Source: Lachnospiraceae bacterium
GTDB taxonomy: Bacteria; Bacillota; Clostridia; Lachnospirales; Lachnospiraceae
Reading direction: 5' to 3'
Length of the DNA: 64,000 bases
NCBI GenBank assembly: GCA_017412055.1
Contig: JAFQOW010000010.1
Span: forward strand, 1-64,000
A program made the translations under genes and the position numbers. The number at the start of each line of letters is the position of its first letter. The stretch's first letter is position 1. A model generated the notes under the pieces. The model did not search any database, was not told the DNA's origin, and saw nothing but the letters and a program-made list of their open reading frames with translations. Below are positions 3,694 through 59,203 of this stretch, piece after piece.

Positions 3694-4374
3694 ATGGGAT
3701 TTTTTGACAGTATATCAAAGGTAGTAAAAAACGCAAAGAAGTTTGAAGGTGTAATTGATGATGTAAAGAAAGCAAAAGATTTAGGTGATGTTTTCGATTC
3801 GGTAAAGGATGCAGTAAATAAGTCATCAGATAAAAAGGAAGAAAAGAATAGTGTAGAGTCTAAAAAGGAATCAACTAATATAGATGCTATAAAGCTTGCT
3901 AACAGCAAACATTGGGTAGAAACAACTGAATATGGTGAGGATGATAAGGAATATCAGGTAAAATTTATGATTGATGATACATTTAAAGAAGCCGATTCAC
4001 ATGCTGCAGAATTAGTAATGTTAAATACATATTCTCCAAACAGTGAGTACGGAGAAGAGGGAAAGCGTCCTTATGTAGGAATACTTATGGATGATTTTGT
4101 CTATGAATCAGTAGAAGAATTTAAGAATAGTAAAACAGTAAAAGGAGCCATAGAGCTTTCGCCGCTTAATGGTCAGTTTTTCTTTAAAGCGAAGAAAGAA
4201 TATCATGGTGATATGATGTATTTCTATGGTTTAGACCGCTGTGATGGAATGTGGGAAAATAATGGTTTGTGTTTAGTATATCAAAAATCATATGTAGGTA
4301 CATCAGCTGAAGAACAGCTTATAAAGATGTTTGACGAATTAGCAGAAAGCTATGTGGAGATTAAAAGTAAATAA
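3694..4374 (+). CDS. Hypothetical protein, charged N-terminus plus globular domain
   Basis: I do not recognise this 226-residue protein. Residues 1-45 are amphipathic and Lys-rich (starting MGFFDSISKVV), residues 46-62 are a charged linker, and residues 68-226 form a mixed domain with aromatic, acidic strands (HWVETTEYGEDD, YVGILMDDFVYES, DRCDGMWENNG) and a C-terminal helix. There is no signal peptide or membrane span, so it is probably cytoplasmic. ATG 3694 has an ideal AGGAGG at 3681-3686. It is monocistronic and ends in a bidirectional terminator shared with the iron repressor. No functional assignment is justified. Confidence 0.75.
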   Translation: MGFFDSISKVVKNAKKFEGVIDDVKKAKDLGDVFDSVKDAVNKSSDKKEEKNSVESKKESTNIDAIKLANSKHWVETTEYGEDDKEYQVKFMIDDTFKEADSHAAELVMLNTYSPNSEYGEEGKRPYVGILMDDFVYESVEEFKNSKTVKGAIELSPLNGQFFFKAKKEYHGDMMYFYGLDRCDGMWENNGLCLVYQKSYVGTSAEEQLIKMFDELAESYVEIKSK

Positions 4375-4388
4375 GTGTTTCATAATAG

Positions 4389-4425
4389 AATAAACAAGTC
4401 ACTGATGACTTGTTTATTTTTTTAT
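4389..4425. terminator. Bidirectional terminator between 3694-4374 and the iron repressor gene
   Basis: Perfect 12-bp stem AATAAACAAGTC / GACTTGTTTATT (4389-4400 and 4407-4418) followed by a T run. The stop codon of the minus-strand repressor gene (4414-4416) lies in the 3' arm. Confidence 0.85.
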
Positions 4426-4785
4426 CTTTTTTAAATAATTTTTTAAAGCATAGAAAGATTCGTCACTGATGATGTGTTCCATTTTGCAGGCATCCTCCTC
4501 AGCGATTTCTTTATCGACACCAAGAAGTATAAAAACTTGGCTTAATACTGTGTGTCTATCATATATTTTTTTTGCATGAGATAAACCTGCATCTGTTAAT
4601 GATATGTGTCCATCCTTATCTACATTTATATATCCTTCTTTTTTTAATAATCCAACGCCTCTGCAGACACTTGGTTTGGAAAAATTCATATGTTCAGCTA
4701 CATCTATTGAACGGACAACATCCTTGGTTTTACAAAGTACATATATAGATTCTAGGTACATTTCTCCTGATGGTTTTAATGACAT
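4414..4785 (-). CDS. DtxR-family iron-dependent transcriptional repressor
   Basis: A 123-residue protein with an N-terminal winged helix (recognition region SKPSVCRGVGLLKK, residues 36-49) and the metal-binding dimerisation domain; the SH3 domain of longer DtxR/IdeR proteins is absent, as in MntR-like short forms. By alignment in my head the primary metal site is M9, C100, E103 and H104, matching DtxR Met10/Cys102/Glu105/His106. In MntR the first and second positions are Asp and Glu, so the residues point to Fe(II) sensing rather than Mn(II). H78 matches ancillary His79. It is divergent from feoAB, whose leader carries three matching palindromes, so it most likely represses ferrous iron uptake when iron is replete. 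Confidence 0.87.
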   Translation of the reverse strand: MSLKPSGEMYLESIYVLCKTKDVVRSIDVAEHMNFSKPSVCRGVGLLKKEGYINVDKDGHISLTDAGLSHAKKIYDRHTVLSQVFILLGVDKEIAEEDACKMEHIISDESFYALKNYLKKIKK

Positions 4786-4867
4786 AATAATCTCCTAAAT
4801 AAAAGTAATTTCTTCTATTAAACATAGCATATAATGAGCGTGAAATCAAATAATTTATAAAAAACTG

Positions 4868-4896
4868 TTGACAAAATATGGAGTGCATAGTACAAT
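4868..4896 (+). promoter_or_regulatory. feoA promoter
   Basis: Consensus sigma-A type promoter: TTGACA at 4868-4873, 17-base spacer, TACAAT at 4891-4896. The first iron-box palindrome begins 6 bases after the -10 element, over the expected start of transcription. Confidence 0.8.
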
Positions 4897-4902
4897 ACAT
4901 CC

Positions 4903-4920
4903 AGTTAGCAACAACTAACT
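4903..4920. promoter_or_regulatory. Predicted iron-repressor operator 1
   Basis: Palindrome AGTTAG-N6-CTAACT placed at +1 of the feoA promoter. Same form as sites at 4939-4956 and 5262-5279, and similar to DtxR-family boxes with TTAG/CTAA arms. Binding by the adjacent repressor is inferred. Confidence 0.75.
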
Positions 4921-4938
4921 CTTTATTTTTTGAAAGGG

Positions 4939-4956
4939 AGTTAGCAATTGCTAATT
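4939..4956. promoter_or_regulatory. Predicted iron-repressor operator 2
   Basis: AGTTAG-CAATTG-CTAATT, one base off the perfect palindrome, 36 bases downstream of operator 1 in the feoA leader. Confidence 0.72.
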
Positions 4957-5007
4957 AAAGGAACATATGCAATAGGCATAAATATAAAATACATGGTGGT
5001 ATGTAAT

Positions 5008-5220
5008 ATGACTTTGAAGGAAGCTGTAGAAGGAAAAGAATATAAGGTTTTGCAGATTAATACAGATGACGAGGAGTTGAAAGCATTTTTATTTTCCCTT
5101 GGCTGCTATGAAGGCGAGCCGATTACAGTTGTTGCACACCGCAGAGGTGGTTGCACTGTCTCTATTAAAGATGGAAGATATAGCATAGATACTCAGTTAG
5201 CTGAAGCTATTGAGATATAA
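5008..5220 (+). CDS. feoA: FeoA, ferrous iron transport accessory protein
   Basis: A 70-residue SH3-like FeoA domain with the typical pattern: TLKEAVEGKEYKV at the start, the LFSLGCYEGEPITVVAH core and a final strand ending in AEAIEI. FeoA is a cytosolic partner needed for FeoB-dependent Fe(II) import. The open frame reaches back to 4948, but the start at 5008 gives the family length and has GGTGG at 4995-4999; ATG 4993 is the alternative. First gene of the feo operon, directly downstream of two operators. Confidence 0.88.
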   Translation: MTLKEAVEGKEYKVLQINTDDEELKAFLFSLGCYEGEPITVVAHRRGGCTVSIKDGRYSIDTQLAEAIEI

Positions 5221-5232
5221 TTCTTAATTTGT

Positions 5233-5254
5233 AAAATAATCTGCGGATTATTTT
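5233..5254 (+). terminator. Intercistronic hairpin between feoA and feoB
   Basis: Perfect 9-bp stem AAAATAATC / GATTATTTT with a TGCG loop. The T run is short, so partial termination or mRNA processing between feoA and feoB is possible; function is inferred only. Confidence 0.5.
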
Positions 5255-5261
5255 GAGTATG

Positions 5262-5279
5262 AGTTAGCGATTGCTAACT
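5262..5279. promoter_or_regulatory. Predicted iron-repressor operator 3, upstream of feoB
   Basis: Perfect palindrome AGTTAG-CGATTG-CTAACT in the 112-bp feoA-feoB gap. An operator here suggests that feoB has its own regulated promoter or that the repressor blocks elongation; no clear -35/-10 pair is visible. Confidence 0.72.
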
Positions 5280-5332
5280 AACCACTGTTTTATGATTTAA
5301 TGATATATAGCATAATTTAGGAGGAAAGAAAA

Positions 5333-7333
5333 ATGAGAATCGCTTTAACAGGCAACCCAAACTCAGGTAAAACTACAATGTATAATGCCTTGACTGGTTC
5401 TAACGAAAAGGTTGGTAACTGGGCAGGTGTTACTGTAGATAAAAAAGAACATTCAATTAAAAAAGCTTATGCAGGCAATGACCAGCTTATAGCAGTTGAC
5501 CTTCCGGGTGCATACTCTATGTCACCATTTACAAGTGAAGAAAGCATTACAAGCTCATATGTAAAGAAGGAAAATCCGGATGTTATCATTAACATTATAG
5601 ATGCAAGTAATTTAAGCCGTAGCTTATTTTTTACAACACAGCTTTTAGAACTTGGTATTCCTGTGGTTGTGGCATTAAATAAAAGTGACCTTAATGATAA
5701 GCAGGGAACAACAATTGATGCTAAGGCTCTTTCAGAAAAGCTTGGATGTCCAGTTGTCAATACAGTTTCTACTTCTTCAGAAGGTTTAAAAGAAGCAGTG
5801 GAAGTAGCTGTAGCACATGCCAATGACACTCAGAAGGCACCATACAGTCAGGGTGATATAGATTTGACTGATAAGGCGGCAGTAGAAGCGGCTGATAGAA
5901 AGCGTTTTGAATTTGTTAATCAGATTGTAAAAGAGATAGAGATACGTAAGGTTCTTACAAAGGATAAGAATTACGGAGATAAGATAGATGCTGTACTTAC
6001 AAATAAGTGGTTAGGTATTCCTATATTTGCAGTTGTTATGTTCCTTGTATTCCAGATTTCTCAGGTTTGGGTAGGAACTCCTATAGCAGATTTGCTGGTA
6101 GGTTGGTTAGAAATATTCCAGGGTTGGGTTGGAGAGCTTTTAGCTGATGCTAATCCACTTCTTTCAGCAATCCTTGTTGATGGTGTTATAGGTGGTGTGG
6201 TAGCCGTAGTAGGTTTTTTACCACTTGTTATGGTAATGTATTTCCTTATAGCATTACTTGAGGATTGTGGATATATGTCAAGAGTTGCAGTTGTACTTGA
6301 TCCAATATTTAAGAAGGTTGGTCTTTCAGGTAGGTCAGTAATTCCATTTGTTATTACAATAGGATGTGCAGTTCCAGGTATTATGGCAAGCCGTACAATT
6401 CGTAATGAACGTGAAAGAAGAGCAACAGCTATGTTGGCACCTTTTATGCCATGTGGTGCAAAGATTCCGGTTATAGCTTTATTTGCAGGTGCATTCTTTG
6501 ATGGAGCTGGCTGGGTGAGCACTGTTATGTACCTTTCAGGTATTGTGCTTATCTTCCTTGGTGCACTTCTTATCAATGCAATTACAGGTTACAAGGCTAG
6601 AAAATCATTTTTCATTATTGAGCTTCCAGAGTACAAGACACCATCCTTCTGGGGTGCATTTAAGTCTATGTGCAGTCGTGGTTGGTCATACATAGTAAAG
6701 GCAGCGACTATTATACTTCTCTGTAATATGGCCGTTCAGATTATGCAGACATTTACATGGCAGTTTAAGGTTGCAGATGCAGCGGATCAGTCTATTCTTG
6801 CTTCTATAGCAGCACCTTTTGCATATTTACTTATTCCAATTGTTGGAGTATTATCTTGGCAGCTTGCAGCAGCAGCAGTTACAGGATTTATCGCAAAAGA
6901 GAATGTTGTAGGTACTTTAGCAGTTTGTTTCGTTGGTCTTGAGAATCTTATTGATACTGAAGAGCTTGCCCTTATGGAAGGCGCAGGAACAGAGGTTGCT
7001 GGAATTATGGCTATTACAAAGGTAGCGGCTCTTGCGTACCTTATGTTTAACCTTTATACACCACCATGCTTTGCAGCTATCGGTGCTATGAATGCTGAAA
7101 TGAAGAGCGCAAAGTGGCTTTGGGGTGGAATTGGTCTTCAGCTTGCAATAGGATATACAGTAGCATATTTGGTATATACTGTAGGTACAATCATTACAGG
7201 TGGCTCGCTTAATTTGTGCGCTGCAATCGCAGGACTTGTGGCAGTACTTGTTATGGTGACTATAATTGTTGCACTTATCATTAATACAAAAAAGAAAATG
7301 AAAGCAGAATATACTTTAAATACTGCTAAATAA
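5333..7333 (+). CDS. feoB: FeoB, ferrous iron transporter with GTPase domain
   Basis: A 666-residue membrane protein. The N-terminal G domain shows G1 GNPNSGKT (7-14), G2 GVTV, G3 DLPG and G4 NKSD; a helical linker follows to about residue 215, then about ten membrane segments with paired Gate motifs around GCAVPGIMASRT and TGFIAKENVVG. It imports Fe(II) across the cytoplasmic membrane with GTP hydrolysis. RBS AGGAGG at 5320-5325 sets the start. It is slightly shorter than E. coli FeoB, as is common in Clostridia. FeoA upstream and a small Cys-rich membrane protein downstream complete the operon. Confidence 0.96.
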   Translation: MRIALTGNPNSGKTTMYNALTGSNEKVGNWAGVTVDKKEHSIKKAYAGNDQLIAVDLPGAYSMSPFTSEESITSSYVKKENPDVIINIIDASNLSRSLFFTTQLLELGIPVVVALNKSDLNDKQGTTIDAKALSEKLGCPVVNTVSTSSEGLKEAVEVAVAHANDTQKAPYSQGDIDLTDKAAVEAADRKRFEFVNQIVKEIEIRKVLTKDKNYGDKIDAVLTNKWLGIPIFAVVMFLVFQISQVWVGTPIADLLVGWLEIFQGWVGELLADANPLLSAILVDGVIGGVVAVVGFLPLVMVMYFLIALLEDCGYMSRVAVVLDPIFKKVGLSGRSVIPFVITIGCAVPGIMASRTIRNERERRATAMLAPFMPCGAKIPVIALFAGAFFDGAGWVSTVMYLSGIVLIFLGALLINAITGYKARKSFFIIELPEYKTPSFWGAFKSMCSRGWSYIVKAATIILLCNMAVQIMQTFTWQFKVADAADQSILASIAAPFAYLLIPIVGVLSWQLAAAAVTGFIAKENVVGTLAVCFVGLENLIDTEELALMEGAGTEVAGIMAITKVAALAYLMFNLYTPPCFAAIGAMNAEMKSAKWLWGGIGLQLAIGYTVAYLVYTVGTIITGGSLNLCAAIAGLVAVLVMVTIIVALIINTKKKMKAEYTLNTAK

Positions 7334-57914: not shown

Positions 57915-58979
57915 TTAGTCATCATATTTTGTATTTATTACATGTTGTATCATTTTATTCACATCAGAATTGGCATTTATGGCTGTGATATTTACCTCAG
58001 GATATTTATTTTTAAATACTACAAATACTTCATGAGCAAAGCCCTGTCCTATCATAGGTACCTCTGAAAAATCCAAGATTATATCACCAAACTGTTCCAT
58101 ACGGTAAACAAGTCTTCTGGCAAGGGAACGGGCCACTGGATAACCGCCGTGGCAAATTTCACGGATAGGAATAATAGTTTTGGAGAAGCCCTCATTATCT
58201 GATGAGAATTCATCGAATATTTCATTCATTTTTCTTGTAGAGAAGTTAGAAAGCTCCATCCATACTGTAGTGCCGTAGCCACTTATCTTATTTGCATATG
58301 ATTCAAGATATGCTTTTAGGGAGGCATCTGCACTTTGCATACCATGATAGAATACCTGATTATCTGAACATATAGCAAAGTAATCAAGCATCTTAGATAC
58401 GAAGAATATACCCTCGCCTGTATGAAGATACTTAGCTATGGTTAATTTGCCCTTATGAAGCTCAAGGATAATATCTCTTGTACTTATATCTATATTCTTT
58501 TCTTTTTTTACATAATCTTTAATTCGCTGGAAAATACCTTCACCTGTATCAGCGATAATGATATCTGTATAGAGATAGCTGGTTCTTATCTTGCATATTA
58601 CCTTATCGGCACCAGAGTGCTCCAATGCATTATTCATTATTTCTACAAATACGTAAGGCCAAATTTTTTTAGCTGATTCAGAGAAATCTTTGATAACAGG
58701 TGCTAAGATTTCACCGTATATTTCATGCTCTTCGAAGCTTTCATTGGCTATATCGTAGATATACTCATATTCTGTCCAGGTAAGGTCGTAGCCACAGGCA
58801 CGGTCTTCATCCTTATTTATAATCTTTTGGTCCATAAGCTCTTTAAGATATCTTCTGATGCTGGTAGCAGTGAGGGAATATTTCTTTATAAGCTTTTGGA
58901 TGAATTCTGCATCGTCATTGTTTATAAGCTCCATAAGATTATGCTGTATTTTGTCACGTTTTTCCTTAGTAAAAGACAT
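57915..58979 (-). CDS. HTH - GHKL ATPase - STAS-like (DUF4325) regulatory fusion
   Basis: A 354-residue cytoplasmic protein. Residues 1-60 form a winged helix (TATSIRRYLKELMDQ); 85-235 a GHKL ATPase with N-box E113-IMN-N117-ALEHS, G1 D144-TGEG and G2 G188-EG; 275-345 a STAS-like DUF4325 domain (GDIILDFSEVPMIGQGFAHEVFVVF). The ATPase resembles anti-sigma kinases (SpoIIAB/RsbW) and STAS domains are their antagonists, so one chain joins DNA-binding, kinase-like and antagonist-like parts. Partners are not known. RBS AGGAGG sets the start. Confidence 0.8.
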   Translation of the reverse strand: MSFTKEKRDKIQHNLMELINNDDAEFIQKLIKKYSLTATSIRRYLKELMDQKIINKDEDRACGYDLTWTEYEYIYDIANESFEEHEIYGEILAPVIKDFSESAKKIWPYVFVEIMNNALEHSGADKVICKIRTSYLYTDIIIADTGEGIFQRIKDYVKKEKNIDISTRDIILELHKGKLTIAKYLHTGEGIFFVSKMLDYFAICSDNQVFYHGMQSADASLKAYLESYANKISGYGTTVWMELSNFSTRKMNEIFDEFSSDNEGFSKTIIPIREICHGGYPVARSLARRLVYRMEQFGDIILDFSEVPMIGQGFAHEVFVVFKNKYPEVNITAINANSDVNKMIQHVINTKYDD

Positions 58980-59203
58980 AAAATCCTCCTTGTCTAATTA
59001 AGTACACAGATTTTTAATATTGGTGTGCAACATGTCGAAACTATAATAAAACAAAATTAAACTATATATAAATATAATACAATTTTAAGATAAAATATGC
59101 AACCTGAAAAACAAGGATTCTTAAAATAAAAAATTCAAAATCCCCCATTGATTAGTTATATAAAATTCGATAAAATATCTCTAGCACTACAATTGTTTTG
59201 TAA

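Follow-up and report, generated by a model that had tools for sequence, protein, structure and literature searches.

A single-chain HTH-GHKL-STAS protein of Lachnospiraceae with a putative operator at its own promoter

A gene encoding a three-part protein

The window, a 64,000 nt stretch of a Lachnospiraceae genome, contains a minus strand CDS (57915..58979) encoding a 354 aa protein from an ATG start, preceded on the same strand by the Shine-Dalgarno sequence AGGAGG, read in the sequence at 58985..58990. The sole Pfam match above gathering score is to the STAS-like DUF4325 (PF14213; E 2.8e-12, 46.6 bits against a cut-off of 23), covering residues 287-340 (57960..58121, minus strand). Both HTH_45 (16.6 bits against 25.5) and HATPase_c (16.4 against 26.4) fall under their cut-offs, hence these domains were instead assigned by predicted structure. 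An AlphaFold2 model, built from 40 sequences, is confident almost from end to end (pLDDT 89.8, pTM 0.84). At the N terminus is a winged helix-turn-helix, assigned to residues 5-66 (58782..58967, minus strand) from the secondary structure of the model, in which helices at 5-20, 26-34 and 38-50, the last being approximately the recognition helix, are accompanied by strands at 54-56 and 64-66. This is followed by a GHKL ATPase domain of the SpoIIAB/RsbW fold (residues 67-247; 58239..58781, minus strand), the best solved match to which is SpoIIAB itself (1til_E; Z 14.6, rmsd 2.1, 133 aligned), with the N, G1 and G2 boxes at residues 113-121, 144-148 and 177-190 respectively. The C-terminal part, when folded alone, resembles RsbV (6m36_D; Z 8.0, rmsd 2.9, 84 aligned) and has RsbS as its first-ranked Foldseek match (6jhk_B; E 5e-3); when DUF4325 was compared with solved structures by sequence, no relative was found at E ≤0.1.

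Conservation of the nucleotide site was assessed in a 40-row alignment of the window protein and 39 of 46 loci, with fragments and duplicates (L013, L017, L035, L036, L044, L046 and L050) excluded. The N box residues E113, N117 and H121, the G1 residues D144, G146 and G148, and the G2 residues K178, T180, H186, G188 and G190 are invariant in all 40 members, and those of the N box align onto the E, N and H of the SpoIIAB N box from the same genome. Such a conserved site suggests that the protein is probably gated by, or dependent on, ATP. The initial annotation had described a winged helix, a GHKL ATPase with intact N, G1 and G2 boxes and a STAS-like domain in one chain, and had called for a structure prediction; this description is borne out by Pfam in the case of DUF4325, by the model for the winged helix and the SpoIIAB and STAS folds, and by the alignment for the three boxes.

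The usual phosphorylation site is not conserved in the STAS-like domain

The phosphoserine of SpoIIAA, which we take to be the second serine of its DSSG motif, falls on Gly313 of the window protein, with Gln312-Gly313 occupying the place of Ser57-Ser58, in a register that relies on the motif together with a weak hhalign alignment (Prob 2.9). Across the 40 members, the phosphosite position is glycine in 34, alanine in four and serine in two (L039 and L042), whilst Gln312 is invariant. Residues 305-317 contain no conserved serine or threonine in this alignment, and the conserved phosphoacceptor that marks SpoIIAA and RsbV at the start of helix 2 was not found; elsewhere in the C-terminal domain, T268 and S285 are invariant. 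A spoIIAA-spoIIAB-sigF operon exists separately in this genome, on a different contig; its genes were identified by profile matches, sequence and gene order. In view of this operon, and of the lack of a conserved serine or threonine at the SpoIIAA site, ordinary partner switching through phosphorylation seems unlikely for the window protein, and it was dropped as the leading reading on account of the glycine or alanine in 38 of the 40 members.

Tandem repeats upstream of the gene

Three putative operator copies lie in the promoter region of the window gene (59039-59087), identified by their repeat pattern on the minus strand: a gene-proximal TATAGTT half-site (59039..59045), a second TATAGTT 21 bp further upstream (59060..59066) and a degenerate TAAAATT another 21 bp beyond that (59081..59087). 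Repeats of this type were first seen, as TAWAGTT heptamers 21 bp apart, on reading the regions upstream of family members, which were found to carry tandem direct repeats at a spacing of 21 (or 22) bp. The set comprises 38 regions, from the window and 37 of the 46 loci, not all of them independent, as near-duplicate species and phages are included. Eleven of the 38 contain two TWWAGTT heptamers spaced by exactly 21 bp; in 300 dinucleotide shuffles, such regions numbered 0.007 on average and never more than one. A motif-free measure of self-similarity also found lag 21 to be the strongest of 53 lags (mean 12.24, z 13.5), whereas in 243 upstream regions of other genes at the same loci the lag-21 mean was 6.92 (z 2.1) and the highest lag was 15; in 2000 control resamples of one region per locus, the lag-21 mean never rose above 8.22. 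Scores of at least 12 at lag 21 or 22 were recorded for 18/38 target and 22/243 control regions. At the AT-rich promoter of the window itself, lag 21 ties with others for best (12.0, rank 3 by order), and several loci, L010, L024, L032 and L053 among them, have no convincing array.

The repeats were found again in all six members identified later through a profile search, from which the fragment L120 was excluded. Lag 21 has the top mean of the 53 lags in five of these loci (15.2, with the next lag at 8.4) and is the best lag in the sixth, L117, the ranks for the individual members being 1, 2, 1, 4, 1 and 1. In 19 extra viral loci lag 22 scored higher (z 3.9, versus 1.7 for lag 21), and 22 bp is the spacing preferred by both viral and more distant members.

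The letters of the half-site vary by clade, whilst the spacing is constant: the clades outside the TATAGTT group have AGCGAATAT, AACGAATAA, GAGTAATAA, CAAGTAAAA, AAGGTAACT, TTTGGTACG or GGTTTCCAA at the same distance, and L091, found by a Pfam search, has GTTTACAAT twice, 22 bp apart. The gammaproteobacterial L042 and the Treponema L041 likewise have a 21/22 bp array in their promoters, composed of quite different half-sites. The main clade has a third copy in inverted orientation, which starts 26 bp before the start of the first direct copy. Covariation between helix and operator was considered as further support and set aside, being weak in 36 loci and the window once relatedness is corrected for (partial r 0.21, 11 of 2000 permutations); relatedness given the helix does equally well (0.23). 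Judged from sequence, these repeats represent a putative operator conserved across lineages in the gene's own promoter, and binding of the window protein to this promoter is well supported.

Specificity of the putative operator and its overlap with the promoter

The search patterns were derived from these same loci, so that their presence there is expected and it is their scarcity elsewhere that constitutes the result. The three-part pattern of the main clade, for which ten of the approximately 13 loci carrying it were searched whole, occurs at a single place in each of the ten records, the coordinates of which are those of the gene's own promoter; the pattern of a second clade is found at the own promoter in four of four genomes. 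With up to one mismatch, 13 of the 14 genomes or records searched whole have one locus each, apart from one match on the control strand. Within the 7-17 kb surrounding the gene, heptamer pairs are almost confined to its promoter. One of the four genomes of the second clade, L020, has a further, weaker site 43-73 bp beyond the gene.

In the genome of the window itself, seven TWWAGTT pairs were found as against 16 for the reversed-pattern control, hence the pair alone is not specific there. A regulon within this genome was rejected on these counts, and a triple on contig C65 falls inside coding sequence. Three TATAGTT-like heptamers, separated by 21 and 20 bp, are also present before a fabZ-like gene (G000:C9:6353-6400; L103), where they are possibly a second target or a product of chance.

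Thirteen of 21 strong arrays overlap, or stand no more than 6 bp from, the best sigma-70-like site, and in one clade the -10 box coincides with the first direct copy and the -35 box with the inverted copy. An array overlapping or abutting the predicted promoter fits autorepression; some arrays are instead upstream of the -35 box, a position which activation would fit too.

Distribution and gene neighbourhood

Relatives were detected at 39 loci in genome contigs, mostly of Lachnospiraceae but also of Treponema, Succinatimonas and other Pseudomonadota, and in viral sequences at seven and then at 30 IMG/VR loci, the two viral scans overlapping. The three-part layout is the same in most of the 39 genome and seven viral loci. 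Five of 41 close relatives carry the gene, one as a contig-end fragment, and there are seven strong full-length matches among 391 genomes of the class, the window's own included; the further weak matches in this search are, by span and score, of the generic GHKL or HTH kind.

The window gene has neighbours that were named by eye rather than by profile search as dapA, dapB, a cell-wall amidase and an addB-like gene, of which the amidase follows the gene in close relatives only (the window, L008 and L009). As originally remarked, no ORF for a sigma factor or phosphatase adjoins 57915-58979 in the window, and the survey of gene neighbourhoods proposed at the time revealed no family that recurs beyond related genomes, at most six of the 133 nearest neighbours sharing a Pfam family. 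The idea of an operon partner was discarded, none being conserved across the genome loci.

Viral copies are found directly, or nearly so, before annotated terminase genes (L054, L057 and L059), in one case with a phrog_36 transcription regulator preceding the gene (L054), beside endolysins (L058 and L063), and near serine recombinases or integrase-like ORFs named by eye. A role as a phage late-gene regulator was rejected, since the terminase-adjacent position of some viral copies is replaced in others by lysis, integrase-like or serine recombinase neighbours; given such varied placement, the viral gene looks cargo-like. Searches of phage and plasmid collections by tblastn with the window protein and that of L042, and of plasmids with a small DUF4325 protein, gave no match, in each case without a positive control. 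The best match among the PADLOC defence models was only to CARF3, over the HTH (E 0.0075), which does not assign the protein to any of these systems.

DUF4325 also occurs in other arrangements. The same genome has a second, stand-alone DUF4325 gene of 100 aa (L094, G000:C42:172500-181500, at 4051-6481), downstream of genes for a GHKL protein and a 400 aa protein with no Pfam match, presumably RES-like from its motif, with a GmrSD-like gene nearby. In L090 (1236-3526), a Fic-domain gene overlaps one encoding a 428 aa GHKL-DUF4325 fusion with a different N-terminal part, perhaps STAS-like, in place of the HTH. In L093 (2124-3607) the two domains are split between consecutive genes, GHKL first and DUF4325 second, just before a recA-like gene.

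Discussion

We consider it likely that the window protein is a solitary, autoregulatory transcription regulator, probably nucleotide-gated, that acts on an operator in its own promoter. An oligomer of the protein would bind through its winged helices to tandem half-sites 21-22 bp apart, a spacing equivalent to two helical turns, and would most likely repress, rather than activate, its own transcription. A two-turn periodicity of direct repeats suggests that the subunits are arranged head-to-tail on one face of the DNA, for which the GHKL and STAS domains would be natural partners in the contacts between subunits. The SpoIIAB-fold domain is expected to bind ATP or ADP and, together with the STAS domain, could set the oligomeric or DNA-bound state, in answer to a presumed signal and with a presumed physiological output. 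This would amount to nucleotide-gated autoregulation that requires no sigma factor, phosphatase or phosphorylated partner. The suggestion in the initial annotation of a self-contained, ATP-dependent switch on DNA has therefore gained support in its DNA part, through an operator conserved across lineages, whilst its ATP part is plausible.

The protein has the GHKL fold, ExxxN N box, G1 and G2 of the anti-sigma kinases SpoIIAB and RsbW, but differs from them in being fused to a DNA-binding head and a STAS tail, in having an operator of its own and in having no adjoining sigma factor. Similarly, it shares the STAS fold with SpoIIAA, RsbV and RsbS, but as a DUF4325 member has the invariant glutamine and no conserved phosphoacceptor serine. 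Predicted regulators of the COG2865 type also combine an HTH and a GHKL ATPase in one chain, but are not known to have a STAS or DUF4325 domain and differ in domain order. A literature search on DUF4325, PF14213 and the STAS-like domain found no description of an HTH-GHKL-STAS protein. That one chain should combine a kinase with a STAS domain had been singled out as unusual; the fusion is real, but not in itself new, as Rv1364c of M. tuberculosis comprises phosphatase, anti-sigma kinase and STAS domains in a single chain (PMC9138534, PMC12143880). That protein has PAS and phosphatase domains of its own and acts on SigF, and an HTH is not among its parts as described there. What is new is the combination of the three parts with a dedicated, putative operator.

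Several other readings bear on the same evidence. The gene may instead be a single-gene accessory or anti-phage module of prophages and chromosomes, in which DNA binding only keeps expression low and the output is at the protein level; this is possible, if somewhat unlikely. Its patchy distribution, the IMG/VR loci beside terminase, endolysin or integrase-like ORFs, the confinement of the operator to a position at or beside its own gene in the records searched, as befits an autoregulated module, and the Fic, RES-like and GmrSD-like genes adjoining related GHKL-DUF4325 genes would all suit such a module; however, it has no recognisable effector domain and no better PADLOC match than that to CARF3, and its neighbours are mostly metabolic, with defence-type matches only scattered among the 133 proteins. 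That the protein is an ordinary regulator whose regulon escaped detection, the half-sites elsewhere being too degenerate for the patterns used, is unlikely: the triple before the fabZ-like gene and the second site in L020 would be in keeping with it, but both the single locus in 13 of 14 genomes or records and the near-confinement of pairs to the promoter within the surrounding 7-17 kb argue against it.

It is improbable that the protein is a fused partner switch, in which the GHKL domain phosphorylates the STAS domain of its own or another copy, with the circuit closed by a phosphatase or sigma factor encoded elsewhere. The requisite SpoIIAB fold, ExxxN box and STAS fold are all present, Rv1364c is a one-chain precedent, L039 and L042 have serine at the phosphosite and the invariant T268 and S285 leave room for another acceptor; nevertheless, residues 305-317 offer no conserved acceptor, 38 of 40 members have glycine or alanine at the phosphosite, no sigma factor or phosphatase is a conserved neighbour, and the genome already has its separate spoIIA operon.

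A more speculative extension of autoregulation at the own promoter, and one that we regard as doubtful, is that the protein forms a head-to-tail polymer there, with the STAS domain of each subunit docking on its neighbour's GHKL domain as SpoIIAA does on SpoIIAB, no phosphorylation being involved. Such docking would yield direct repeats every two helical turns, and a GHKL dimer would account for the inverted pair at one end. If so, the ATP or ADP state and the occupancy of the site would together form a self-contained memory switch with one DNA site per genome, and partner switching would have been turned into DNA-filament switching.

As a solitary autoregulator, the protein would represent the re-use of anti-sigma and STAS machinery in a DNA switch made of one protein. 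Its short putative operator differs in sequence between Lachnospiraceae, Treponema and Proteobacteria, but retains a single spacing throughout. DUF4325 thereby gains a testable role: inspection of a member's promoter is often enough to reveal its operator, so that a reporter could probe binding to DNA and gating by nucleotide at the same time.
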